In this document: positions 17,450 to 39,792 of the stretch, in pieces
Layout of the letters: each line of letters opens with the position of its first letter
Position numbering within the stretch: position 1 is the stretch's first letter
Assembly (NCBI GenBank): GCA_021234155.1
Contig: JAJEKV010000001.1
Span: forward strand, 24,911,189 to 24,975,188
DNA length: 64,000 nt
Direction: 5' to 3'
DNA from: Isoetes taiwanensis
Lineage: Eukaryota > Streptophyta > Lycopodiopsida > Isoetales > Isoetaceae
Translations under genes and position numbers: made by a program
The notes under the pieces: model-generated
Database searches by the model: none
Told to the model about the DNA's origin: nothing
Seen by the model: only the letters and a program-made list of their open reading frames with translations

Positions 17450-20100
17450 TTGTAAGTGCTTTGAGAGTGCTTTTTGCTTTTTCTGTGTATTTTTTGTTTT
17501 GTTTATGAGGTATCTAATGTTGTGAATTGCAGATTCTGAAACTTACAAGCTGTCCAAAAGTCCTAACATTGCAAAATTGCCCAAGTTTAGCACAGCTCAG
17601 GAGAATAGGAGAATGTAAAGTTCTTACGTGATGAACTCCTAGGCTTGAATACTGAAGGCATGTCATGAAATTAGTTTGATAAATTATGTTTCTTAAAGTC
17701 TTCCACATTTGCTAATATTTATTTTTTATGGCAGAAGATTATGGCAGTCCATTGCATAACACTTCAAAGGGTAAGGGTGCCTTATTAGATTTATGGTATT
17801 TGCATATTGAATTTTTCTTATGGTGAATTTTTTTTTGGCAGGTGCCATCTCCCCTTCCCCTCTCCCCCCCCTTCCAGGAAAAAAGTTGATTTCAATCTGC
17901 AAGATAAATCTACAGCATATTCTAGAAAGGGAAGGCTCATGCAAAGGGGCAAGGTTATGGCCCCATCATCGATTCCACAAACCCTAACCGTGCCCTAATT
18001 CTGGCTGTCTCGAATTTCATGAGAAAAGGGCTTTCATTATAAGCCCTTGGATCTTTTTGGATTAAAAGAGGGCTTTCTTTGTAAGCCTTCTGATCTTAAC
18101 CATTGAGGAGCATGAAACAAAAATTGCACAAATTGCATGCAAAAACTTGGTGCACGCTAAATATATTGATTAGTATGCCTCGTGCAATATGCCCATGAAA
18201 TCATATGAAAACCATGCCAAAAAGCATATAAAATCACAAAAAACCCTTGTTATAATGCTAGATATTAAGTTTTGCAATTTTAATTAAGCAAATTCAGTGC
18301 AATTGTACTAAAGACTGGCCTTAATTTTAGTGTTGCAGGAAGCACTGGACAATGTTCAATTGCCTAAGAATACAGTTGTGCTTGCAGTCCAGCTAGTGCT
18401 GTTAAGGTTCAAGCTACTGAGGTGTCCACTGAATCAGATGACATAAGTGAAGAAGAGGAAGGAAATGCAGTGGAGAAGATTTGGCCAAGAGAGTGCAGAA
18501 AGAAAAACAAGGTGCTGCGCACGGAGGGTTGCCCTCCGTGTCTCGAGGGTGAGGTGGCTTAAATCATACTTCAAAGTCATGTTTTCACAATCAATCAGAA
18601 TTGCTACTTTAAACAATACAATACTTGATACCTTGACTTTATGAACAACCCAAAAATCCCCATCTCCATGACTAAATCAAGATCCCTCCTTCTGCCTCTC
18701 CCTCCCTCCCTCTCTCACCACTCTCCCTTAATACACACTGCATAGTGCATATCTTCTCCCCTAATACACAATGTGTATGTGCATATTAGGTGTGTGTTGC
18801 ATACGTGCAATGGTGTGGTATAAACATGTGTATATACCACACCATGTATGAACATATATACGGTCTACTATACCACCCCAACACACACCATACTAGAAGA
18901 ATCCTTGCCATTATCATCCGCTCCATCATCCGCTGTCATATGGTGATTTTGGATGGATTATTTTTTATTTGCTACTATGTCAGTCTCTGCATGAAAATGA
19001 TCATATTATTGCACATGGTACTGCTATTGGAGAAAAATAGCCATAGCGAGAAAACCAAGATCTACCAGATCAAAACAAGGATTTTAACAAGAATTTCACC
19101 CTTGATCCCTAAAATCATTATTCTAGTTTTGGAAAGGCCAGAGTTCTATTGTTATTCCATACATCAACATTGGAGCACATACAATATCTTATGCAACTCA
19201 ATGTCTCAATCTCAACCATTTAAGGTGATTACAAGAGAAAAGACAAACAAAGCTTTTTTACTTAACACTTGTCAGTAGAGGATGCTAGTTGAGTATTGAA
19301 ATTAGCAAGAACATAATTTTGAAAGGTAAAAAGCGAGAAGGCAATGGTTGTTGAGGTGCACGATATTTTTTTAGGTGACTATCTTTGTCATCAGCATTTC
19401 CATTTATTTATTGATTATTAGATGCCTAGTTTCATGTCTTAATTTTAGAATGCAGCAATTAAAAGTAGACAACAAAACTCCGTTCAATATAAATAGTCAA
19501 GGTCCTCGATATGTTCAAGATATCAGGCTAAAGTATAAGAAGTCAAGGTACATTTATAGTACAAAGTACCGAGTGGTAGTTATTGAAGTCAACCTATCTA
19601 AAGTACTCAAGCTGATACTGCAAAAATTGGGTCAGAAGGAATATATGTCAAGAAAGAAAAAATGTTCAATAAATTCGGGAGTGAAGTAATAGCATGAGTC
19701 CAATCCCAAGTTCAAGAGCTAAGCTATTTATTTGCATTGCATATTGCCATTAAATGTTATCGAGTACTGTATATGTCTGCTATACCTCTGTGATAATAGT
19801 AGGATTTCTTATAAAATAAGAACTGTTCTTCTGCCATCTTCATGTTATTAATCTCCATGAACTAGAATAATGTAACCATCCTACAAGTTGCTCTGCAGAA
19901 TCTTATTGCCTAAGCAATTTCATTCTGTGGCAATTCATGCAATTTTTCAAGGTGTTTACCTCTGGCTTTTCTAGTTCAATAACTGTCATCATCTTGTACA
20001 TTATCAATGATATTCACATTCTTGCACAACGACTCGCATGAAACCAACAAAGCGCCCTTGATTTTTTAGTTATGGGGAGATTCGTCCATTATTTTGCCAT
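17450..20100. other. 2.6 kb with no clear gene
   Basis: The stretch at about 17,520-17,610 could encode a short Ser/Lys segment, and 18,339-18,470 has the acceptor-like ttgcag plus an acidic stretch, possibly belonging to the gene upstream. The remainder is AT-rich. Around 18,690-18,880 there are CTCCCT and ATGTGTGT-type low-complexity tracts. Confidence 0.4.
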
Positions 20101-20438
20101 GCTCACTCGATCATTTTTCGTATCCTGCTTTCTGTCGGTATGTAATCTGATGTGGTTTTGGGGATTATAGCATTGTTCATGTTGTTATTAAGGCGATCGT
20201 GTTTTACACTTTTTCTCGCCGTTGGGCTCTTGTCTGTGGTTATTTTCTTGTTGATTTGTTCATTGGCTTGCATTCCTCTTTTCTCGTATTTATTCTTGGG
20301 CTTAAACCATAACTTTATTGTCTTTTTTGGGGACTTCATTTGTAGCTCGCTATCATTATGCATTGTGCTACCCTTATACATCATATTTGCTATTTAGCTA
20401 TATTTGGACACAAATTTCTATTTATCATGTGTTTTCTT

Positions 20439-22286
20439 CCACCCGCTGGGTGATGCTTTTCTCCACCCCCCGGGTGATGCTATCCCCTCTTTTTTCATGA
20501 ATTGTTGATTTTTTCTCATTTCTAATCGCTCACATCAATTTGGGTGCTTGTAGTTTTGCAGTTTGCCGCTTCACCATTATGCACATTCTTGTTCTCCTTA
20601 ATCGTTAATGGGTGCCTTCTACATGTTCCCATTCTTCTCAAGGCCTCTCGGTTAGTTGGCACTCCTCTTTGTCTCACCCTCGCTACGTGCTTCGTCACCT
20701 GACTCGACACCTGGCGGTTTCGCGGTGGCTGGGCTTATAGTTTATGAAGTTACGCCTCATTTTTTCTTTTACGTTGTGCTCCGAATTACCTTTAGTTTCC
20801 TTCTTGACCTTCTTTTTGCTCGGTGCTAGTATGTCTACATTCTCTTCTTCGCTCTCATCCCTCGTTTGCCAAAGTTTGTTTTCCTATTGGGGCCTTTATT
20901 CATGGCTTTTTGCATATGGTATTTGTCTTCTGACATCACTCCACATTTCTCCTATGCTACCCTGAACCGGACCTTGGCATTTTCACTCTCCTCATTATGA
21001 ACTTCTTTGCTTTAGACTTCTTGTTGTCAACCTCTTTTTTCTTATTGACATTCCTCTGAGCTGGCTCATTCTGTTGGTGTTGGTCTGGTATTGGTAAGCT
21101 TTGAGACGTTGCTTTTTAGGTTCACCTTACCACTCTTGATATTCATCTTCCTTTATCTGGTTTATGGTTTGACCTCTTTTCCCGAATATTGACAGTCCGT
21201 GATCTGCATTCATATCATATGTGCATTGTACGCGTTAACGTGGTTTGTTTTTTCATCGCCTTGTTGCCAGGGCGCTTCGTCATCATGGCGGCGTGCTTTT
21301 CTTTTCATTGTTTTTTCTCTAATGTCCTTTCCTTTTTCAGGTCATTGGGCTGATACCGTCCATAGCAGGCGCTTCCGGCTCTTCTTCTTCAGCTTCGTTT
21401 TCTCCCCCACGGCTCGCTCGCGCTGCTGGTTCTCGTCAACGTGTAGCTTCCAGACTTTTCGGACCCTGGTTTCCTTTCTCCTCCTGCCACTCCAAATGAG
21501 ACCAATTTGCCCGTGGTCATACGATTTCTTTAGCTCGCTTGCCTTCATTCGCATGCCCCATCACTATCCTTCAGCGCCTAATTTCCACCGGTTCCTATCA
21601 TCTATTCGATCCTCCGTCCGGCAGCCCTCTTTTTCGCTCCTATCCTTTCTCTCTGCGTCCTTTATCCTATCCGACTGCTCGAGGGTGGTGGCAGGAGTAT
21701 CTTCTTGCTATCAGCTTCACCTGGAGGTTTCGCAACGACTAGATTTATAGTTGAGGAAGTCCTTTGCTAGTCGACCGGTTTTGTGTCTCTCGCGAGTCCC
21801 TTCCCAGAATCCCATCGATCCGAGCCATCGGATCGCCATTCTGGGAAGGGACAAGCGCCTATATTAGGCCATTTTCATTTTGGCTCGGTTATCGGCGTCT
21901 TCTCACAGCAGCTCTTCTTCTCCTCTCGTGGCTTCCCTCCCTTCCCGCCCTGCTGTCAGTGGCGCATGAGTCTTTTTCATTTGTATTTTTTGTTGTTCAT
22001 GCCTCTTTGTTGTTCTCCACCTGTGAGTGTGGCTATTCTTATGTTTCTGTTCCATCGCCCTGCTATTCTTATGTTTCTGTTCCATTGCTCTCTTGTTGTG
22101 TTGTTCTCCACCTGCAGGTGATGCTATTTATTTCCACCTCGAGGGTGATGCATATTTTTACATAATGGTTCTCCACCCGCTGGGTGATGCTTTATGCTGT
22201 TTATTTCCACCTCGGGGGTGATGCATGTTTTTACATAATGGTTCTCTACCTGCTGAGTGATGCTTTTTCCACCCTACGGGTGATGC
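20439..22286 (+). repeat. Family of short CCACC...GGTGATGC hairpins
   Basis: An 17-18-nt motif made of CCACCY, a 2-4-nt loop and RGGTGATGC occurs at 20,439, 20,463, 22,108, 22,134, 22,173, 22,207, 22,246 (CTACCTGCTGAGTGATGC, degenerate) and 22,269. Examples are CCACCCGCTGGGTGATGC and CCACCTGCAGGTGATGC. Part of the array (22,124-22,265) is a tandem of about 73 bp, but the first two copies are 1.6 kb away. Two inverted copies lie at 23,134-23,151 and 23,159-23,177. The surrounding DNA is CT-rich on the plus strand and does not encode a convincing protein. Confidence 0.65.
21796..21852. repeat. Nested perfect hairpin, copy 1
   Basis: The outer arms are GTCCCTTCCCAGAAT (21,796-21,810) and ATTCTGGGAAGGGAC (21,838-21,852), a perfect 15-bp inverted repeat. 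The inner arms are CGATCCG (21,816-21,822) and CGGATCG (21,829-21,835) around a 6-nt loop. A homologous hairpin in inverted orientation is at 23,367-23,423, with similar flanks (GCGAGTCCC; TAGTCG and CGGTTTTGTG nearby). Confidence 0.8.
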
Positions 22287-22600
22287 TATCTTTTTCTGTT
22301 ATGTTCTTTTTTTTCTCTGTTTTCATTTTCGGACCTTCTTGGTGTAGCTTGTGCTGTTTGTTTTCTCTGACCATTTACGGGTGTTCTTTTTGGAAGTTTT
22401 TTGGTATTGCTTGCAGGATTACGCTGTTTTCCGCCCGTCTGGGTCCTCTGCTCTATTTCTGTTCGCCATCACCCCTCTCCTTCGGTTCTCCATGGACACA
22501 TTCGGGGGAGGCTTTCGCCGTATGCTGGGGTCGTGCTCTATTTTGCATTCGCCATCAACTCGTTTCTCTCCGTTCTCCAGGCAACACATTCAAGGTTGTT

Positions 22601-22677
22601 GGCGACCATTTCTCATTAGGGTTTTCCTCGAAAACTCGAAAGGGCGGGGTTTTTTATCCCGATGAGAAGTTGTCGCC
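22601..22677. repeat. Hairpin element H1 with conserved tetraloop core
   Basis: Outer arms GGCGACCATTTCTCAT (22,601-22,616) and ATGAGAAGTTGTCGCC (22,662-22,677) pair at 14 of 16 positions. Between them is a core holding AGGGTTTTCCTCGAAAACTC, GAAA, GGGCGGGG, a T run and ATCCCG. Two related units (22,916-22,992 and 25,377-25,461) keep the core but have unrelated outer arms. Non-coding; the unit could act as RNA or as a DNA transposition intermediate. Confidence 0.65.
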
Positions 22678-22915
22678 ATTACCCTTTTATTTTGCCTTGG
22701 CAAATTTCTTTTTAGGGGGTAGTCCGATATTGTTCCTATGGTCGGCTATCCCCTCTCTCTCCCTAGTTTTCCACACATTGTATACTGTTGCTGTGATGAA
22801 TGACAAGCCTATCTATCAATGCGAACTACCCACGAAAAATAAAGGGAAAATCCAATTATATCATTTGGACCCCAAAAGAAATACAATGCTAATAGATGAG
22901 TGGCTGATGTACCTA

Positions 22916-22992
22916 CCGAACGCTTATCACCGGGATTAAAAAACCCCGCCCTTTCGGGTTTTCGAGGAAAAACCCTAGTGATAAGCCTTCGG
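22916..22992. repeat. Hairpin element H2, inverted relative to H1
   Basis: Outer arms CCGAACGCTTATCAC (22,916-22,930) and GTGATAAGCCTTCGG (22,978-22,992) pair at 14 of 15 positions. The core on the minus strand reads AGGGTTTTTCCTCGAAAACC, then C, GAAA, GGGCGGGG, a T run and AATCCCG. H1 and H2 face each other 0.3 kb apart, so together they look like one 380-bp inverted-repeat element. Confidence 0.65.
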
Positions 22993-23133
22993 CAAGGGGC
23001 TTAGACAAACGTAAGGCATAGAATCGCTCCCAAAAACCCCCGCATGGAGAAGTCGACACAGATGCCGCTCGCCAACCTATACCTGCACAGCACCAACACA
23101 ACAAACGAGACAACACAAACATACCAGAGAATA

Positions 23134-23177
23134 GCATCACCCAGGGGGTGGAAAAAAAGCATCACCCAAATGGGTGG
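23134..23177 (-). repeat. Two inverted CCACC...GGTGATGC hairpins
   Basis: GCATCACCCAGGGGGTGG (23,134-23,151) and GCATCACCCAAATGGGTGG (23,159-23,177) are reverse-complement members of the family at 20,439-22,286. Confidence 0.65.
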
Positions 23178-23231
23178 AAAACATGATAAAAGTAAACTTG
23201 TACAAAATACAATAAACAAAGAAGGGGGGGG

Positions 23232-23425
23232 TGGGTTCAAAGAGAATAAGGTACATCCGAGAAGAGGAAGCGCCATGAGACGGGATGCGAAACGCTACGC
23301 TGAAATAGCGAACTCCCAACCAAAACGGGCATGCGCCGCCCTCATGCATGCACGACATGCATGCTCGTCCCATTCTAGAATGGCGATCCGATGTCTCGGA
23401 TCGATGCGATTCTAGAATGGGACTC
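23232..23425 (+). repeat. Direct repeat X containing a nested hairpin
   Basis: The repeat starts TTCAAAGAGAATAAGGTAC, passes through GAGAAGAGGAAGCGCC and ATGCATGC-rich DNA, and ends in a nested hairpin. The hairpin outer arms are GTCCCATTCTAGAAT (23,367-23,381) and ATTCTAGAATGGGAC (23,409-23,423), a perfect 15 bp. Its inner arms CGATCCG (23,384-23,390) and CGGATCG (23,397-23,403) surround a 6-nt loop. A second diverged copy lies at 23,585-23,795. Confidence 0.75.
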
Positions 23426-23584
23426 GCAAGAAACCAACAAACCGCCCGACTACCAGAGAACTTCCTTACAAACTAGGATCGAGGACGAAGGTCACAGGAC
23501 GAGGCCAAAGGCCAGAAAAGGATAGCATGAAAGAAACGCCAAATTGGCTAAACCAGGCAGGAAGAAGCCCCTCCCCTGTCTGGA

Positions 23585-23795
23585 AACAATTCAAAGAGAA
23601 TAAGGTACTGCTGAGAGAAGAGGAAGCGCCGATGAAACGTCGATGAAGAACTCTGCAATAAGTAGCAAACGCCCAACCTGACGAACGGCCCAAAACGCAT
23701 GCGATGCATGCATGCGACGCATGCAATGCATGCATGCTCGTCTTGAGCAAGAATGCCGATTCGCTACGCGAATCGACGACATTATCTACCATGAT
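23585..23795 (+). repeat. Direct repeat Y, diverged copy of X
   Basis: It shares TTCAAAGAGAATAAGGTAC, AGAAGAGGAAGCGCC and GCATGCATGCTCGTC with X. The inner hairpin is kept with a paired change (CGATTCG 23,757-23,763 with CGAATCG 23,769-23,775), while the outer arms no longer pair. Confidence 0.7.
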
Positions 23796-23817
23796 TTTAC
23801 CTTGATAGCTCTAATGT

Positions 23818-24530
23818 GATGAGATGTGAATCCCCTATAGGTGCAGTACTTCCTTCCACAACCATGTCATTCAAATGATGTCATCTTGTCGATAGCTTAT
23901 CTACTTGATCAGACAGATAATGCATTGGCTTTGGCGTAATTGTTTCCTCAACTACAGGTGCATTGGATGATTGGTCAACATGAGCTATCTCTGTAGCATT
24001 CACATCATATTCCAACCTCAAAGCTTTAGCCTTTGCAGCATGCTTACGTGCCAAATATCTCTTTCTACCAGACCTACTTTCATTCATGGACGTCATATAT
24101 GAGGGTTTATTGGCCACATCGACCTCCCTAGCTTGTAGCAACATCGCATGATCACCTGTTTGTTTCTGCATCGTGGAAAATAATGGAATCATAATATCAT
24201 TAACTTCTGATGTGATAAGATGTGAATCCCCCGTATATGCAACAGTTCCTTCCAAGACCATACCATTCAAATGCTGGCATCTTGTCAATGGCTCATCTAC
24301 TTGACCAGACAGACAATGCATTGGCTCTGTTATGGCTGTCCCTCCAATTGCTGGTGCGTTGGATGAGCATTCACATCATATTCTAACCTCAAGGCTCTAG
24401 CCTTTGCAGCACGCCTACGTGCCAAACGTCTCTTACGACTAGACCTACTTTCATGCACAGGCGTCAAATATGAGGGGTTATCGGCCACAGCAGGTGGCTT
24501 TTTTTGGTGAGATCTCCTCATATACGTCCC
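23818..24530 (-). pseudogene. Tandemly duplicated ORF of unknown function
   Basis: Two copies of about 0.37-0.40 kb lie in tandem. GATGTGAATCCCC occurs at 23,823 and 24,219, and GACCTACTTTCAT-type sequence at 24,071 and 24,442. Both minus-strand copies encode the basic segment ESRSGRKRYLARKHAAKAKA or ESRSSRKRRLARRRAAKARA, followed by LRLEYDVNA, preceded by a PSYMT or PSYLT motif. The Arg/Lys/Ala-rich helix could bind nucleic acid. I do not recognise the family; frames are broken between copies. It may be the tail of a retroelement gag or a domesticated fragment. Confidence 0.4.
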
Positions 24531-24879
24531 TGGTACCTGTAACCTTATAACAATTTAGGCTTTTCGCATGAAAATACACATGTAATTTATGTGTTTAAAT
24601 GATATCCATCACACTATAAGCTAGCACATCTAACTTAAAGTAGAACGATGACTCACCTAAAGTCCACAGTTCCATACAATATCCTATTCCAGGAGACAGG
24701 TTTTCTAACCCTTCAATGGGCTGCATTGGAATGTCACATTATTTACTTCTAGAAGGTGGTCGCTATGGGTGATACACATTTTTCCAACCTTGCTTTGGCC
24801 GTAGCGATGGGTCCCTAATGCCTCAAAGCCTGCTGGAAGGACAAGCAAGCTCAGTGGTTCTTATGTTGAGATGTACAGG

Positions 24880-25350
24880 CAAACAGATGCGTACAGGTAC
24901 AGACAAAGAAGGATCACAATGCACTAAAGCTGTACCTAGATGTTGCTTTCTTTCGCAAGCTCTGGGATGCAGATGCTCTGACGCACGTTAAGCTGGCACA
25001 CTATCAGCAGCAAGTCAATACTAGACTCACGAGAGGCCCACACCAGTACTTGTACACCCATTTGCCCATGAAGAAGTGCAGACTTATAGCTTCCATTCGC
25101 ATGGGTGCATATCGTCTCTGCATTGAGACAAGGCGTTGGACTCGGGAAGCACAGAATGAGAGGCTTTGTCATTGTTGCCACCAGGGCGCCATTGAATATG
25201 AATGTCATGCCCTCAGATCTGTTTCGTTACTGGTGCCTGGGCAGCCGTTGCATGAGTTATTGAATACGGCGTCCGTGGGCTTGTTGGGGTCATACCTCCA
25301 GGAGGTTATAGATGCATGGACTCAGTCGTGTCCTCCGGGACAGTGTTGAA
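24880..25350 (+). pseudogene. C-terminal remnant of a LINE-type reverse transcriptase
   Basis: An open frame without a convincing start reads KLYLDVAFFRKLW, LTRGPHQYLYTHLP, CRLIASIRMGAYRLCIETRR, WTREAQNERLCHCCHQGAIE and YECHAL. The pattern of an R-x-G-x-x-x-L-x-x-E-T-x-R-W segment followed by RxC-x-x-C and a downstream E-x-H/C is familiar from the zinc-finger tail of non-LTR retrotransposon ORF2 proteins. No polymerase domain remains upstream. Identification is by motif style only. Confidence 0.5.
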
Positions 25351-25376
25351 TTGTCCTATACAGTTGTACAGTGTAC

Positions 25377-25461
25377 CAGCATACTTGTTACTGCTAAGGT
25401 TTTTCCCTCGAAAACCCTTCGGGACGGGGATTTTTTAATCCTGACAGTAATACGCTTGCTG
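25377..25461. repeat. Hairpin element H3, third tetraloop-core unit
   Basis: Outer arms CAGCATACTTGTTACTG (25,377-25,393) and CAGTAATACGCTTGCTG (25,445-25,461) pair at 13 of 17 positions. The core reads AAGGTTTTTCCCTCGAAAAC, then CCTTCGGG, ACGGGG, a T run and AATCC. The hairpin loop is UUCG-like where H1 and H2 have GAAA. It lies just after the LINE remnant. Confidence 0.6.
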
Positions 25462-25499
25462 CTCTCTTTCTTTGGGTCCCATAGGCCAATTGGTCTCCG

Positions 25500-27690
25500 T
25501 GGACGATAAAAAATCTATTTTATTCTATTTTATTCTGATATAGTGTGATATATATTCTCTTTTCATATGCAAATAGCAAATTAGGTCCTGTAAACATGAG
25601 AGCACATAGTTTAGAAAACAAAACCATACATTATAAGAATATAATTGAAATTTAAAGAACGGTCTAGCAAAGCATGCTTAAGCGTGTTAATGTCATGCAT
25701 TGATTTCGCTAAGGAAACTACTTTCAAACATCGTTAACACAACATATATATACGTAACATATAACAAGAATAGTTTTGACATTAAACAAAACCAATGGTC
25801 TTTTCTTATAAGAAACCCTAAACTATGCATTACATGTCCAAATCATGTTGCATAAGGTATTGCACATGCAAGATAGTTTCCATGGCATCCACAAACTTAT
25901 GGAGTCTCACGTAGGTGCGTTTGTGAAAGTGTTTGTCCAGTTGCTTGACAAAATTCTCAAAGTCTAGCTCAACCTTAAACCCTAGACGTATTTCAAGTGT
26001 ACCACTCTCCATAAAAGTTCACAACCCATATCAGGTGATCAATGTGCACTTGCATTCCCAAAATCCCCAATGTAGAACTCTCTGCAATATCTTCCATTAT
26101 GCTCTTACAATTCTCTTCTTTTGCAAGGTATTGCAAATATGCATCAAAATTATCATCAACTGGCAACCAGACCCAGTGCCCATCTCTAAAGAATTATTCC
26201 ACAAATCTTAGATAAGAATCCCATGGAACATTCAAAACCACCATCTGCATGGAGGGAAGTATATTATGAGTACAAATATGATCACCAATGTCTTTATTCG
26301 AGCTATTTTGATTCTAAAAATTTGTAACATAAATCTGAGCTATTAAAGTTCTTGGTATTTTCATGCACAACCTATGTCAAAGTTCATAAAAATTATGACG
26401 AAATAATCTTGCCTTCAAAGTTCATAACATTAGTCTACTTAAATCATTAATGTTCTTAGAATTTTTATATTCTCATGATATCATCTTTAATGAAATAGTT
26501 AATTGATTGTATTAGAGATTGTTTGTGGATTTAGATGTGTAGACATTGGTTATGGTTTAGAATGTTAAATGATCCAAATTGTTGTAGATGAAGAGTAAAC
26601 TTATTAGTTAGGGCTCAGAAAGCACTTGGTTATTGCAGATCGGTTTATTTCATAAGTAATTTGGTTGGTTAGCCACCGTTAAAAAATAACAACCTTAAAT
26701 TTCAAAAAAATCGATACCCTCAAGTGCCTTAGATACCTATGGGCTAATGTCCTAGCATATTTTTTTACTCAGTCTTCAATGTCCATATCTGCAACTTCCG
26801 TCGATAGCACATCTTGATATTCGCCAGAATTGACATTATTTGCTTTTGTACTTACTTTTGTTATTGAAATTGTCTAATGACCGTATCATAACTTTGTGTT
26901 TATAAATTTCAGTAGAGAAAACAATATTTATAAGAAATGTGGGGGAAATTAATTTACCTCTAAAGACAAAAAATTGGAAAGATGATATAAAACTTATGCT
27001 CAAAATGTCATCCTTAGAAGTAGTTAAGTACATCAACAAAAAATAGGTACAGAAATGCAAAACACAAAAATCTTGTCCTGGTTCATTGGCGTACTTCAGT
27101 TCATGATGGAACTCTAAATATATATCTCCACATGATGCACATCACCAAGAGCCTAATGTTGTATTTTTTGGATGCTTCCATGATATCTTCACCATTCATT
27201 CACATTGACTAAAACAGAAGATAAGATGCTTCCGTGACTGAAACAAAACTTCTCCATTCATTCACATTGACTCACAATTCAATCACTCATAGAACTTAAA
27301 CTTCAAGTAAATTAAACTTGAAAGCATGTAAACTGGAAAGCATGAAAACAGTAATGTAAATTTGATTGTAAACTTGATTGTGAATTAGATGAAAATATGA
27401 ATGATTGTAAACTTGTTATCTTGTTGCGACAACTCAAATTAGAAACTTCTAAATTACAACTCCTCAAATTGCAACTTTAGTATATTACAACTCGGAATAT
27501 TGCAAACTCGAAACTTCAGTATTGCAACTTCAATATATTACGAAGTCAAAATATTGCAAACTCAAATTGCAATTTCAGTATATTATAACTCAAATTATTT
27601 CAGATTCATAAGTATTGAACACAAAATTTTTATAAAATTTCATAATTTCATAAGTTTTCAACACAATTTTTTTTCGGTGAAGGAGATGAG
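25500..27690. other. AT-rich 2.2 kb without a gene
   Basis: No family motif in any frame. At about 27,420-27,600 there is a degenerate tandem array built from ATTGCAACT, ATATTAC and AACTCGAA-type words, with no stable period. Confidence 0.45.
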
Positions 27691-31655: not shown

Positions 31656-32294
31656 TATTAAAATGCCCTTAATCTTACTGTATCGTGGTTTCTGCCATAG
31701 CCAAGCTTACGTTCCTCATCATCGAGCTCAATTTTATATCTTTTGCCCCTGCCAACCTCAAACTATTCCTCAAACCGACTCTTCAAGTCTTTGGCCAGAT
31801 TGTTCTCGCTTTTTTCATCCCAATTCCTCCTTGGCTAGATTTTAAATATGCCGCTTTAGTCACTATCTGTGGATTCAGAGTTTTATTCTGCATCAGGTGT
31901 ATGACTGTCTGTATGTGTTGTATGAAATTGTTTGAGGCGAAAGCCATTAACCAGTGTAGGTAATGGAGTGCCATCTAATTCTGCCAGCTTGAACGCTGGA
32001 TTGTACAACTTGAACAATTTGATAAGGACCAAGCCATCTGAACTTTAACTTCCCTGGAAAATTTATGAGGGAGTGTGTGGAGGACACTTTGCAGCAGATA
32101 CAACTGCAAAAAAGGTTCTAAGGTCAGGATACTTTTGGCCCACTCTTTTTAAGGATTGTTATGAGACTATAAAATGCTGCCATAAATGTCAAATCTTTGG
32201 TAAAAAGACTCTGCAACCAGCTGCCCTGACTGCAATAACTTCCCCTGGACCTTTCCAAATGTGGGGGCTGGATTTTATAGGCCCCATAGATCCA

Positions 32295-32302
32295 CCTTCT
32301 TC
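32295..32302. other. Target-site duplication, left
   Basis: CCTTCTTC, identical to 32,539-32,546, flanks the inserted MITE. Eight bases is the size typical of hAT-type insertion. Confidence 0.85.
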
Positions 32303-32538
32303 CCCGGGGGATTCACTTATAACAAAGGGGATATGCCATCTGCGTTCAGGGGGTAGTAAAAAACCCCCTAGTATACTGACTTATGAAAGCTATTTTAACC
32401 CCTTTAAGTATATGGTTTACCCCAAATAGTGGTTAAAAAACCCCTAGTATGGTACGTATGCCTACGTAAAATGGTAAAAAAAACCCCTCAAGTATAACTC
32501 ACATGGTTTGTACGCCCAAAACATGTGAATCCCCCGGG
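32303..32538. mobile_element. 236-bp MITE with 14-bp perfect TIRs
   Basis: The left end CCCGGGGGATTCAC and right end GTGAATCCCCCGGG (32,525-32,538) are perfect inverted repeats flanked by CCTTCTTC on both sides. The eight-base duplication suggests mobilisation by a hAT transposase. The interior carries about four degenerate copies of a GGTAAAAAACCCCTAGTAT-like unit at irregular 35-55-bp spacing. It has no coding capacity. It sits in the integrase frame, so it moved in after the retroelement. Confidence 0.85.
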
Positions 32539-32546
32539 CCTTCTTC
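32539..32546. other. Target-site duplication, right
   Basis: CCTTCTTC, the partner of 32,295-32,302. Confidence 0.85.
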
Positions 32547-33409
32547 AGCTCAACACCAATTTATATTAGTGGCCACTGATTACTTTACCAAATGGGCAGA
32601 GGCAATTCCCTTGAGAGAAGCTAATGCTCAAGCCACTGCAAGATTCCTGCATGAAAACATTTGTGCCAGGTTTGGGATTCCCTTTAAAATAGTTTCTGAC
32701 AGAGGTAGCCAGTTCATCAACCATACAATTGCACTACTACTAGCCACCTTGAAAGTCAAACATACCAAAAGTTCGTCCTATTACCCTCAGGGAAATGGCC
32801 AGGCAGAATCAACCAATAAAACTCTCAAATCCATTCTCAAGAAAACCATCCGTGTTTCAAAAAAGGATTGGCATCTGAAGCTCCATGATGCACTCTGGGC
32901 ATACAGAACCACAATCAAAATAGCTACAAAACATACCCCTTTCAGTTTGGTGTATGGGATAGAATCAGTGCTGCCTATAGAATTAGAACTTCCATCACTC
33001 AGACTGGCTTATCAAATTAATTTGGAAATGGATGAGGCTCTAAAAGAAAGATTTGTGAGATTGATGCAGCTTGAGGAGCATAGATATGAAGCAGAGAATG
33101 CAGTTATGAGGAAAAAGGCTAAAGATATTGCAGCCTTTAAAGCAGCACACAAATTACAGGGAGTCTTAAAAACAGGAGAGTTGGTGTTGAAGTGGAACAA
33201 GTCAAGGGAAGAAATAGCATCCAAATTTGAGAGTCTTTGGGAAGGACCATTTGAAGTGATAGGGACAGCTGGCAGAGATTCATATTGGCTGAAAGATATT
33301 GCTGATGGCAGAGAATTGATGAACCCTATCAACATTGTGCCCTTGCTTTGTTCAATTAAAATTTTTCTGGAAAGATGTAGTTAGAATTAGTTAGTGCATT
33401 GCTCAAAAA

Positions 33410-37550: not shown

Positions 37551-39149
37551 TTAATTCGTGCCTGGAAGTTGGACTTGAACTTGAGGAAGTTGAGGGCATG
37601 TCGTGGTGGTATGACCCCATTCCAAACAATGATAGCACTGAGCTTTAGCAGGATCAAAAGGAGGACGGTTGCTTTGTCCTCGTGGCTGCTGAGATTGTTG
37701 ATACTGTTGAGGAGATTGTGCTTGAAACTGCTGAGTTTGATATGACGGTTGTTGCTGAGGCGTGGTCTGGACTTGATAAACCATCTTTTGGCGGAAAGGT
37801 GTAGGATGAGTACGAGTGCATTCTTCCGTGGCATGGTTGCACATGTTGCAACGTTTACAATGAGGAGGGCCATTGGTGGAGTTGCACTCATTGGCCAAAT
37901 GGCCTTGATATTTGCAGATGTGGCACCAAATTTGACTGCGTTGAGGATTGGAGTGTTGAGGCTGAACTGCAGTCTGAGGTACCATGACAGGAGGAATGAA
38001 GGGTAGCTCCTGGAGGGCCACGCCACGAGAAGAAACATTAACTGAATGATTGACAAGTTCGATGGCCTGCTCCAAAGTCTTGGGGCGCAGGTATTCAGTC
38101 ATGAGACGAATAGCCGGAGGAAGTCCTTGGAGAAACCAGACAAGGATCTGGCTTTGCGTGGGGTACTCTTGAAGTTTGCTGAGGAGAATGTGAAGACGGT
38201 TCGCAAAATCCCGGGCTGATTCCGTGGGCTCTTGCTGAAGATCATTGAGTTGCTTGAGAAGAAGTTGATCATCATCTGTGGTGCCATAATGAGAAAGGAA
38301 AGCAGTCTTCATTTCTGTCCAGTTTTGTTTCCAATGGCTTTTGTTTGCCATGAGCCATTGATGAGGGGATCCACGCAGCGTGGTGGAAAAGATATGGAAC
38401 TTCAGTTGAGGTTGAGCGTGACCATTTAGGACAGCCAGAGCCTCAAATTCTTCCATGTGGGCTTGAGCACTTTGATCCAATAGTTTGCCTTTAGTACTGC
38501 CAAAAGTGGGATAGGTCAGTTTGAGAGTCTGAAAAGAAGATTGTGACTGGCCTTGTGCATAGAGAGGCGGTGTATAAGGAGGGACATAATGGGGCGGAAC
38601 GTCCATGGAGTCCGTCTGAGGTGGCAAGGGAGCAGAAAGACCCTGAAGATGTGCAAAAGGAGGGTCCTGTGGGGGAGGACCTTGGGGTCCGTGGTCATGA
38701 GGTTTGAGATCGGTAAGAGTGTAAACTGGAAGAGTCTGTTGAAAAGAAGGGGATTGAGGATATGTCTGAACCTGGGGAGGGCCGAAAGAAACATGAGGAT
38801 AACCCATTCCACCAGGTGGAGATGATGGTTGGGAAGGCAGAGGAGTATGGCTGGAGGAGATATGAATGCAGGCACTCTCGGGAGTGTGGAAATAATCTGA
38901 AGGTTGCTGAACAGGTGTATGATGAGGTGACTGAGGTTGTGAACAATGTTTACACGCTGGAGGAGAGCCAGGACGAGAGTGAACACGAGGAGTAGGTGGC
39001 GCCGACTGAGCTCGTGAGCGAATATGGCCTCCCTTAATATCATAACCTGTGTCGTACATATCTCGAGCAACTTCGCGACGTTGATGGCACTCCAAATGAG
39101 ACGCTGTCTGGCTAAGAAGCTCCTCTGGTGTGAAAGCTCGGGCAGACAT
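37551..39149 (-). CDS. Gag protein of a Ty3-like element
   Basis: A 532-residue frame starts MSARAFTPEELL. Residues 1-200 are Pro/Gln/Ser-rich. A capsid-like helical region around residues 215-360 has FSTTLRGSPHQWLMANKSHW, ESARDFANRLHILLSKL and VWFLQGLPPAIRLMTEYLRP, matching the retrotransposon gag pattern. Three CCHC zinc knuckles follow: CHICKYQGHLANEC, CKRCNMCNHATEEC and CYHCLEWGHTTTTC. Gag coats the RNA and forms particles in the cytoplasm. The frame ends in a single TAA; the protease frame continues in the same phase two codons later with ATG. The start is chosen because the candidate primer site lies about 30-45 bp upstream. Confidence 0.85.
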   Translation of the reverse strand: MSARAFTPEELLSQTASHLECHQRREVARDMYDTGYDIKGGHIRSRAQSAPPTPRVHSRPGSPPACKHCSQPQSPHHTPVQQPSDYFHTPESACIHISSSHTPLPSQPSSPPGGMGYPHVSFGPPQVQTYPQSPSFQQTLPVYTLTDLKPHDHGPQGPPPQDPPFAHLQGLSAPLPPQTDSMDVPPHYVPPYTPPLYAQGQSQSSFQTLKLTYPTFGSTKGKLLDQSAQAHMEEFEALAVLNGHAQPQLKFHIFSTTLRGSPHQWLMANKSHWKQNWTEMKTAFLSHYGTTDDDQLLLKQLNDLQQEPTESARDFANRLHILLSKLQEYPTQSQILVWFLQGLPPAIRLMTEYLRPKTLEQAIELVNHSVNVSSRGVALQELPFIPPVMVPQTAVQPQHSNPQRSQIWCHICKYQGHLANECNSTNGPPHCKRCNMCNHATEECTRTHPTPFRQKMVYQVQTTPQQQPSYQTQQFQAQSPQQYQQSQQPRGQSNRPPFDPAKAQCYHCLEWGHTTTTCPQLPQVQVQLPGTN

Positions 39150-39177
39150 GATAAAAGAAAGAAGGGAGAGAAAATCA

Positions 39178-39195
39178 GACCCGGCAGCGGCGACA
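39178..39195 (-). other. Candidate primer-binding site
   Basis: On the minus strand it reads TGTCGCCGCTGCCGGGTC, directly downstream of the LTR end CCCAAACA with one spacer base. It resembles the Asp-tRNA-type primer site of some plant Ty3 elements (TGGCGCCGTTGCCGGGGA, from memory) except for the third base and a few others. Confidence 0.5.
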
Positions 39196-39196
39196 G

Positions 39197-39792
39197 TGTT
39201 TGGGGTCTGGGTTCGAGAAGTCCTGCAAGACAGCCCTGCTGTGAGGACCCGTGGATCAAACAGGAGAATCCGGTAGCTGTGTCACGCGGGATTTGCAAAA
39301 GAAACTAAGGAAGGGAAAAGAGACAACAAGAAAACAAAAAGAACAATGTAGAACACAATGAAGAGAACAAAACTCCTTGATATCAATTGTGATACATGAG
39401 CTCTCGCAATCGAGAGAAGGCAGAAGTGAGATAAGACCAAAAACTCATCTAGCCCGTGAAGGCTAGCTCTACTCATATATATAGTACAATGGCCTTTGGC
39501 CCAATATAGACACTCTGTCAAAGCTCGGTGCCGACTCCTGGAAGGAGGCCTGATTTGCAGGAGCGTTGGCGGTGCCTCTTGAGACCCTGAAATGGCGCAG
39601 ATGGTGACAGCGCGTCATTTCTCTGTGCGCCTCCTCTTGGTCCAGGGCACAGCCTTTGACTGCGTGGTCTGCGGCGGCTTGGTCTTCTGCGGGCCCTTGG
39701 ATGACTGACCTGTGCCTGACTGTGGATCCTTGGCCTTGACCTGGTCCGTCGTGTGCATGAATAGTCCTGTATTTGGACGTACAAGACTAACA
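39197..39792 (-). repeat. 5' LTR of the gag/protease element
   Basis: On the minus strand the 596-bp segment begins TGTTAGTCTTGTACGTCC and ends CCCCAAACA, with TG...CA ends. A TATA box (TATATATG, 39,475-39,484 on the plus strand) is followed by the palindromic CTCTCGATTGCGAGAG and T-rich stretches, as expected for U3/R. The partner 3' LTR was not found within the window. Confidence 0.65.
39475..39484 (-). promoter_or_regulatory. TATA box within the LTR
   Basis: CTATATATATG on the minus strand, about 280-330 bp upstream of gag. It is suitable for starting the retroelement transcript. Confidence 0.55.

Follow-up and report, generated by a model that had tools for sequence, protein, structure and literature searches.

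Elements for nuclear expression (ENEs) are reportedly present as modules in the RNAs of plant and fungal transposons. In the ENE layout, G-C pairs enclose a U-rich internal loop, which clamps a poly(A) tail by forming a triple helix. The available part of PMC12501189 mentions around 200 reported ENEs and describes that of Evade (Arabidopsis Copia93), which sits in the spacer between the open reading frame (ORF) and the 3' long terminal repeat (LTR), requires its U tracts and adjacent G-C pairs for the triplex, and when deleted lowers RNA stability and new insertions. In the MALAT1 triple helix, according to the available part of PMC11411715, a basal and an apical duplex bound the U-rich internal loop, and an A-rich tract lies 3' of the stem. 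Here we describe a hairpin that occurs three times in a stretch of 64,000 nucleotides from Isoetes taiwanensis (C907:24911189-24975188, hereafter the window) and is repeated thousands of times in the genome. It is probably an ENE-type stability element of variant form, common to different kinds of transposon. We favor this reading because a U-rich internal loop between G-C pairs is the ENE layout, and it draws support from the occurrence in transposons, the high copy number, covariation in the stems, the U4-5 and U6 tracts, the flanking G-C pairs and, at one locus, the position of the hairpin in a Copia element.

The order of the core is the same in each unit: GG(G)T4-5, CC(C)TCGAAAAC, a small hairpin and GGGG-T6. 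In the best-supported of the modelled folds, a long stem with near-invariant G-C pairs leads to an internal loop of U4-5 and U6, a G-C-rich second stem, an AAAA bulge and a tetraloop cap (GAAA or UUCG). The U tracts are predicted to be unpaired. The units are named after the families in which they lie (A and B, short elements; C, a long interspersed nuclear element, or LINE), and the z scores listed compare the RNA fold with dinucleotide shuffles.

22601..22677, + strand: unit A, hairpin of a short A-type element (z -4.98; covariance model E 3.6e-17)
22622..22625, + strand: unit A, first U tract (U4) of the internal loop (sequence, alignment)
22626..22630, + strand: unit A, 5' side of the upper stem, CCUCG, with its partner CGGGG at 22645-22649 (matched changes in other subfamilies)
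22631..22634, + strand: unit A, AAAA bulge, conserved (alignment, U-anchored list)
22635..22644, + strand: unit A, cap hairpin CUC-GAAA-GGG (sequence)
22650..22655, + strand: unit A, second U tract, U6 (sequence)
22916..22992, - strand: unit B, hairpin of a B-type element (z -5.33; covariance model E 4.2e-19)
22968..22972, - strand: unit B, first U tract, U5 (sequence)
22959..22962, - strand: unit B, AAAA bulge (sequence)
22938..22943, - strand: unit B, second U tract, U6 (sequence)
25377..25461, + strand: unit C, hairpin of a LINE copy, close to its 3' end (z -2.40; covariance model E 2.1e-19)
25400..25404, + strand: unit C, first U tract, U5 (sequence)
25411..25414, + strand: unit C, AAAA bulge (sequence)
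25431..25436, + strand: unit C, second U tract, U6 (sequence)

These are the three units of a preliminary description made from the letters of the window, and we confirm their positions, the pairing of their arms (16, 16 and 13 of the 17 arm positions of our first alignment in units A, B and C, with G.U counted) and their inner loops (GAAA, GAAA and UUCG). All three fold more stably than chance would give; for unit C, 4 of 200 dinucleotide shuffles fold equally well. A covariance-model search of the 64-kb window, with a model trained on 27 rows that include the three window units, gave three strong matches (E 2e-19 to 4e-17), along with two weak opposite-strand matches at units A and B. The accompanying remark that no named plant element has this form is doubtful, as the ENE that the available part of PMC12501189 describes in plant transposon RNAs has this layout.

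Copies were sought by pattern in 1.658 Gb of genome sequence (1110 contigs), and the resulting counts refer to the core and do not cover the arms. The core pattern (CCTCGAAAACN{0,20}GGGG) has 5,310 forward and 9,962 reverse matches, the reverse count being inflated because a single place can be listed up to three times; when the pattern is reversed, the counts are 109 and 118. Fixing only the U tracts and their neighbors (GGTTTTTCCN{16,30}GGTTTTTTAA) gives 4,943 + 5,097 = 10,040 matches, versus 1 + 0 for the reversal. The LINE tail pattern (TTGGTCTCCGTGGACGNTAAAA) has 9,407 matches, with 0 for the control. We compared copies in a core-anchored sample of 8 automatic loci and 60 hand-chosen regions, taken from the 100 core-pattern matches listed. 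A loose pattern identified 78 core-like places in these regions and the window (74 clustered, 4 unrelated), and their flanks sort into 7 A, 17 B and 41 C, with 13 left over, the 4 unrelated ones included. The first alignment holds 62 of 70 distinct units, eight having been dropped by hand as truncated or rearranged, and a hand-picked set comprises 27 sequences, 26 of them distinct. Conservation of the core within the core-anchored set is meaningless because the copies were found by their core. Therefore, a second sample of 60 copies was taken by the LINE tail alone (20 without a core match in the listed rows and 40 by list order, partly overlapping the earlier copies).

Within each family the arms are largely alike across the copies examined, and more shared sequence flanks them on both sides. 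Thus, the arms are part of the element. The outer arms of the three units had been called unrelated, but they occupy corresponding columns that changed together, and inner-arm columns 18-19 with 81-82 (UU/AA) are nearly invariant in the 26 distinct hand-picked rows. It had also been suggested that the element inserts at the center of palindromes. This predicts target-derived arms that vary by copy, whereas here the arms are particular to a family and recur in its copies, and on this comparison, with no search made for empty sites, the suggestion is rejected.

Selection on structure, the other possibility raised in the preliminary description, is borne out. Across the 62 copies of the first alignment the covariation score is 0.390, versus 0.179 for shuffles and 0.067-0.141 for slid partners. 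In the same alignment 88.0% of 1726 cells pair (37.4-48.6% with slid partners), and 253 cells stay paired through change on both sides (34-71 when slid). In the 26 distinct hand-picked sequences, 92.3% of 770 cells pair and the covariation score is 0.496, with slid partners reaching at most 49.5% and 0.208. Given that the arms covary, we conclude that the RNA structure is under selection. Lower-stem columns 28-73 and 29-72 are G-C, and column pair 37-59 is G-C or C-G, in 26/26 hand-picked rows; the columns nearest the U tracts are G-C or C-G in 60, 56 and 61 of the 62 first-alignment rows. Upper-stem subfamilies are found among the tail-anchored copies (CCCUUG/CAGGGG, with C-G to U-A, and CCCCCG/CGGGGG, with U.G to C-G). 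In the 100 U-anchored matches listed, one upper-stem position has U.G, U-A and C-G and another has C-G and U-A; one G-C to A-U change was identified, and mismatched rows are also present. The lengths of the C run and the G run are coupled (3/5 in 24 copies, 2/4 in 23 and others in 11, for the 58 of 74 copies that could be parsed). Both helices that flank the U-loop are supported, by covariation or by matched changes. The first tract has 4-5 U in 57 and the second 5-6 U in 55 of the 58 parsed copies (16 of the 74 were unparsed), and the AAAA bulge is in place in 94 of the 100 U-anchored matches listed.

Pairs of the G.U type outnumber A-C in the sense strand (181 vs 65), which indicates RNA of one strand. 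This count argues against a foldback precursor of microRNA or siRNA, or a DNA cruciform, in which the U tracts would be without a role. The long stable stems would suit such a foldback, as would the best of five sub-threshold Rfam matches in 22,400-25,600, that to mir-9413 over unit B (26.7 bits for a cut-off of 100, E 0.027). However, the inner part is conserved more than the arms, and the covariance model gives the opposite strand of units A and B 15.6 and 17.7 bits, versus 80.3 and 88.2 for the units themselves. We regard this explanation as very improbable.

Family C is a LINE, as judged from sequence. The 5' start varies among C copies, and a common 3' end lies about 140 nt past the core, followed by repeats that differ by subfamily (TATTC, CATTCT, TTCC). 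At locus L018, a 475-aa open frame upstream of the C hairpin matches the second half of RVT_1 (E 8e-5, below the Pfam cut-off). Pfam searches of window positions 24870-25349 and of broken LINE pieces gave nothing useful, and a PDB search gave one match (E 0.093) that we regard as chance. The window copy comprises, in addition to unit C:

24658..25538, + strand: 5'-truncated LINE copy with unit C (its 5' limit is an estimate based on similarity to other copies)
25476..25504, + strand: second small hairpin of the LINE 3' end, GGTCC..AGGCCAATTGGTCT..GGAC (same pairs in the minimum-energy and the centroid fold)
25508..25513, + strand: encoded A tract (A6) before the repeat tail (sequence)
25514..25538, + strand: microsatellite-like LINE tail, TATTC-type (sequence)

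The 170-nt stretch around the second hairpin has a fold z of only -1.53 overall, and one pair of this hairpin varies (G..T, A..T, G..C) among the 35 C copies, out of 45, that were parsed for it. The encoded tract consists of 4-7 A in the 40 C copies, out of 45, that were parsed for it.

Among the tail-anchored LINE copies, 36 of 60 align into the left arm or further. The other 24 start within 2 nt of the U6 border (4), at the A4/CC border (2), just outside the hairpin base (5, two of which are apparent duplicates), at or near the second hairpin (9) or elsewhere (4). The truncations at the U6 border, the A4/CC border and the hairpin base would fit an enzyme that meets the folded hairpin, a pattern noticed post hoc that we take as a hint. 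Those at the hairpin base and the U6 border, as if the enzyme met a formed structure, would also suit a 3' stem-loop that the LINE reverse transcriptase recognizes and that non-autonomous elements have borrowed for copying by the LINE machinery. The LINE hairpin lies within about 140 nt of the common 3' end, the copies are 5'-truncated, and the available part of PMC5135761 describes 3' stem-loops of LINEs and short interspersed nuclear elements (SINEs) that reverse transcriptase recognizes in other elements. However, the A and B elements and the Copia locus have the hairpin in common with the LINE without its 3' end or repeat tail, and similarity between families ends about 55-60 nt past the core start. 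Copia elements, moreover, use their own reverse transcriptase. We consider this recognition role unlikely. In one place, recorded twice (L061 and L116), the LINE hairpin piece is inverted relative to the tail, an arrangement of the kind that twin priming leaves.

The A and B elements are short (roughly 0.6-1.1 kb) and non-coding. TC after a flanking A begins 12 of the 14 copies with a printed outer 5' flank (one with an extra C), and the 3' end is ..AGAA or a near form followed by T in the 18 copies outside the window for which an end was found, by a search pattern that itself ended in T. Copies can join head to tail. The A and B elements resemble rolling-circle (Helitron-like) elements, a tentative affiliation, in their A and T flanks, TC start and head-to-tail junctions only. 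The distance from the core start to the element end is 177-267 nt in 14 and 428-486 nt in 4 of the 18 copies outside the window with an end found. At about 22,820 in the window, an A copy (+) abuts a B copy (-) tail to tail, the B copy being cut within its GGGTAG..CTACCC hairpin. A second hairpin class is located at head-to-tail A/B junctions (21791-21857 and 23362-23428), with a common core CGATCCGA..TCGGATCG and variable arms (GTCCCTTCCCAGAAT/ATTCTGGGAAGGGAC and GTCCCATTCTAGAAT/ATTCTAGAATGGGAC). The A and B elements of the window also carry small repeated hairpins (CCACCC..GGGTGATGC), which lie upstream of the core at about 20438-20480, 22105-22290 and 23130-23180.

At locus L022, a 98-nt hairpin unit (L022:2049-2146, - strand) lies past a Copia reverse transcriptase frame (RVT_2, 4.5e-75) and a further frame, whose end is about 10 nt from the hairpin. 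This further frame has no Pfam hit, and by eye it reads like the RNase H end of a Copia element. A purine run and TG past the hairpin are a candidate polypurine tract and LTR start. The hairpin at locus L026 is part of an element of no assigned name and precedes a (TATTC)n run by about 500 nt. By the anatomy of the elements, the hairpin is in the 3' part, about 140 nt before the 3' end in the LINE and after the coding frame at the one Copia locus.

As an ENE-type element, the hairpin would act in the transcript, where its two U tracts would clamp an A tract in U.A-U triples. The clamped tract could be the poly(A) tail; for the LINE, the encoded A4-7 tract that precedes the repeat tail is another candidate. 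Such a clamp would shield the RNA end and slow decay, and protection of the RNA end may in turn help the element multiply. Like the ENEs of plant and fungal transposons (Tycowski 2016, known through the available part of PMC12501189), the hairpin would be a module in transposon RNAs, and at L022 it is placed similarly to that of Evade, right after the Copia coding frame. Compared by layout and not by sequence, Evade has four U-rich tracts, whereas the present hairpin has two, plus the AAAA bulge and the tetraloop cap. This conserved bulge and cap, just above the second stem, are an addition over ENEs as described in that part of the source. Unlike the Evade ENE as described there, the hairpin also occurs in a LINE and in short non-coding elements; a literature search that was limited and did not cover the main survey (Tycowski 2016) found no LINE with an ENE. 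The LINE resembles MALAT1, as described in the available part of PMC11411715, in having an encoded A4-7 tract 3' of the hairpin. Unlike in MALAT1, the LINE tract is short, lies about 70 nt from the U6 tract and is followed by a repeat tail.

Several observations weigh against the ENE-type reading. The Copia context is one locus, and Rfam gives 0 matches at the gathering cut-off in the window. Because the copies are related, the changes in the stems are not independent events. Pairs with any double change do not discriminate (17 of 28, versus 16 at slide -2, with 18 of 500 shuffles reaching 17), and the further pair types of the hand-picked set are matched by 155 of 500 shuffles, no better than shuffling. 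The partner of the U tracts is uncertain because the LINE tails inspected consist of short repeats; inspection by eye showed no genomic poly(A) tail in the LINE or A and B copies printed, and in the predicted fold of the window LINE copy the encoded A tract pairs with the tail. The AAAA bulge is outside the ENE layout as given in the available descriptions and allows a rival inner hairpin, U4:A4, which is the better fold for the two A copies and the window C copy, 3 of the 12 sequences. RNAalifold picks an interior of this kind on the first alignment, a UUUC:GAAA hairpin with CCC paired with the last G run.

Under constraints, a fold whose U tracts are kept open outperforms the U4:A4 hairpin in 9 of 12 sequences (by a margin of 0.2 kcal/mol in one). 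We favor the open U-loop because the upper-stem changes are matched and the lengths of the C run and G run are coupled, 47 of 58 copies falling in two matched classes. The hairpin might instead be a regulatory switch or a protein-binding hairpin in which the two pairings are mutually exclusive, with no tail clamped. Both folds can be formed in 12/12 sequences tried and are within 1.2-1.3 kcal/mol of each other in two A and two B copies, and the AAAA kept in 94 of the 100 listed U-anchored copies would also fit a switch. However, the matched upper-stem changes support the fold with open U tracts, and the second U tract would be without a clear role, so that we find a switch or protein-binding role quite unlikely.

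An extension of the ENE-type reading, which we put forward tentatively and hold to be doubtful in this full form, is that an ENE variant with a built-in A tract has been passed between the LINE, Copia and the short elements flanked by A and T, reaching at least ten thousand copies. The internal AAAA would pair with the first U tract until displaced by the RNA's own tail, so that the module would be a switch and would close only if the RNA has an A-rich end. For the LINE, closure would be on the encoded A tract, not on poly(A). If the ENE-type reading is right, RNA end-protection modules would be no oddity of a few transposons and would here be a common repeat across mobile-element classes. Thousands of natural variants would allow the evasion of RNA decay by a tail clamp to be tested, and structure work could draw on a natural series that differs in U tracts, A bulge and stems.

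Other identities were considered and rejected. The core shows no fit to the motifs of self-cleaving ribozymes with which it was compared, and Rfam gives no match at its cut-offs. ARAGORN (bacterial code) identified no tRNA in 19,900-26,300, so a tRNA origin was set aside. A shared LINE/SINE 3' end was also discarded, as the A and B elements and the Copia locus have only the hairpin in common with the LINE. A plasmid collection gave no match to window positions 20,001-26,000. A pentatricopeptide repeat (PPR) match, in keeping with a plant, fell just under the Pfam cut-off. Remains of Gypsy-type retrotransposons, with integrase zinc-binding and core domains and gag, were identified at 32049-33384 and 37551-39281.
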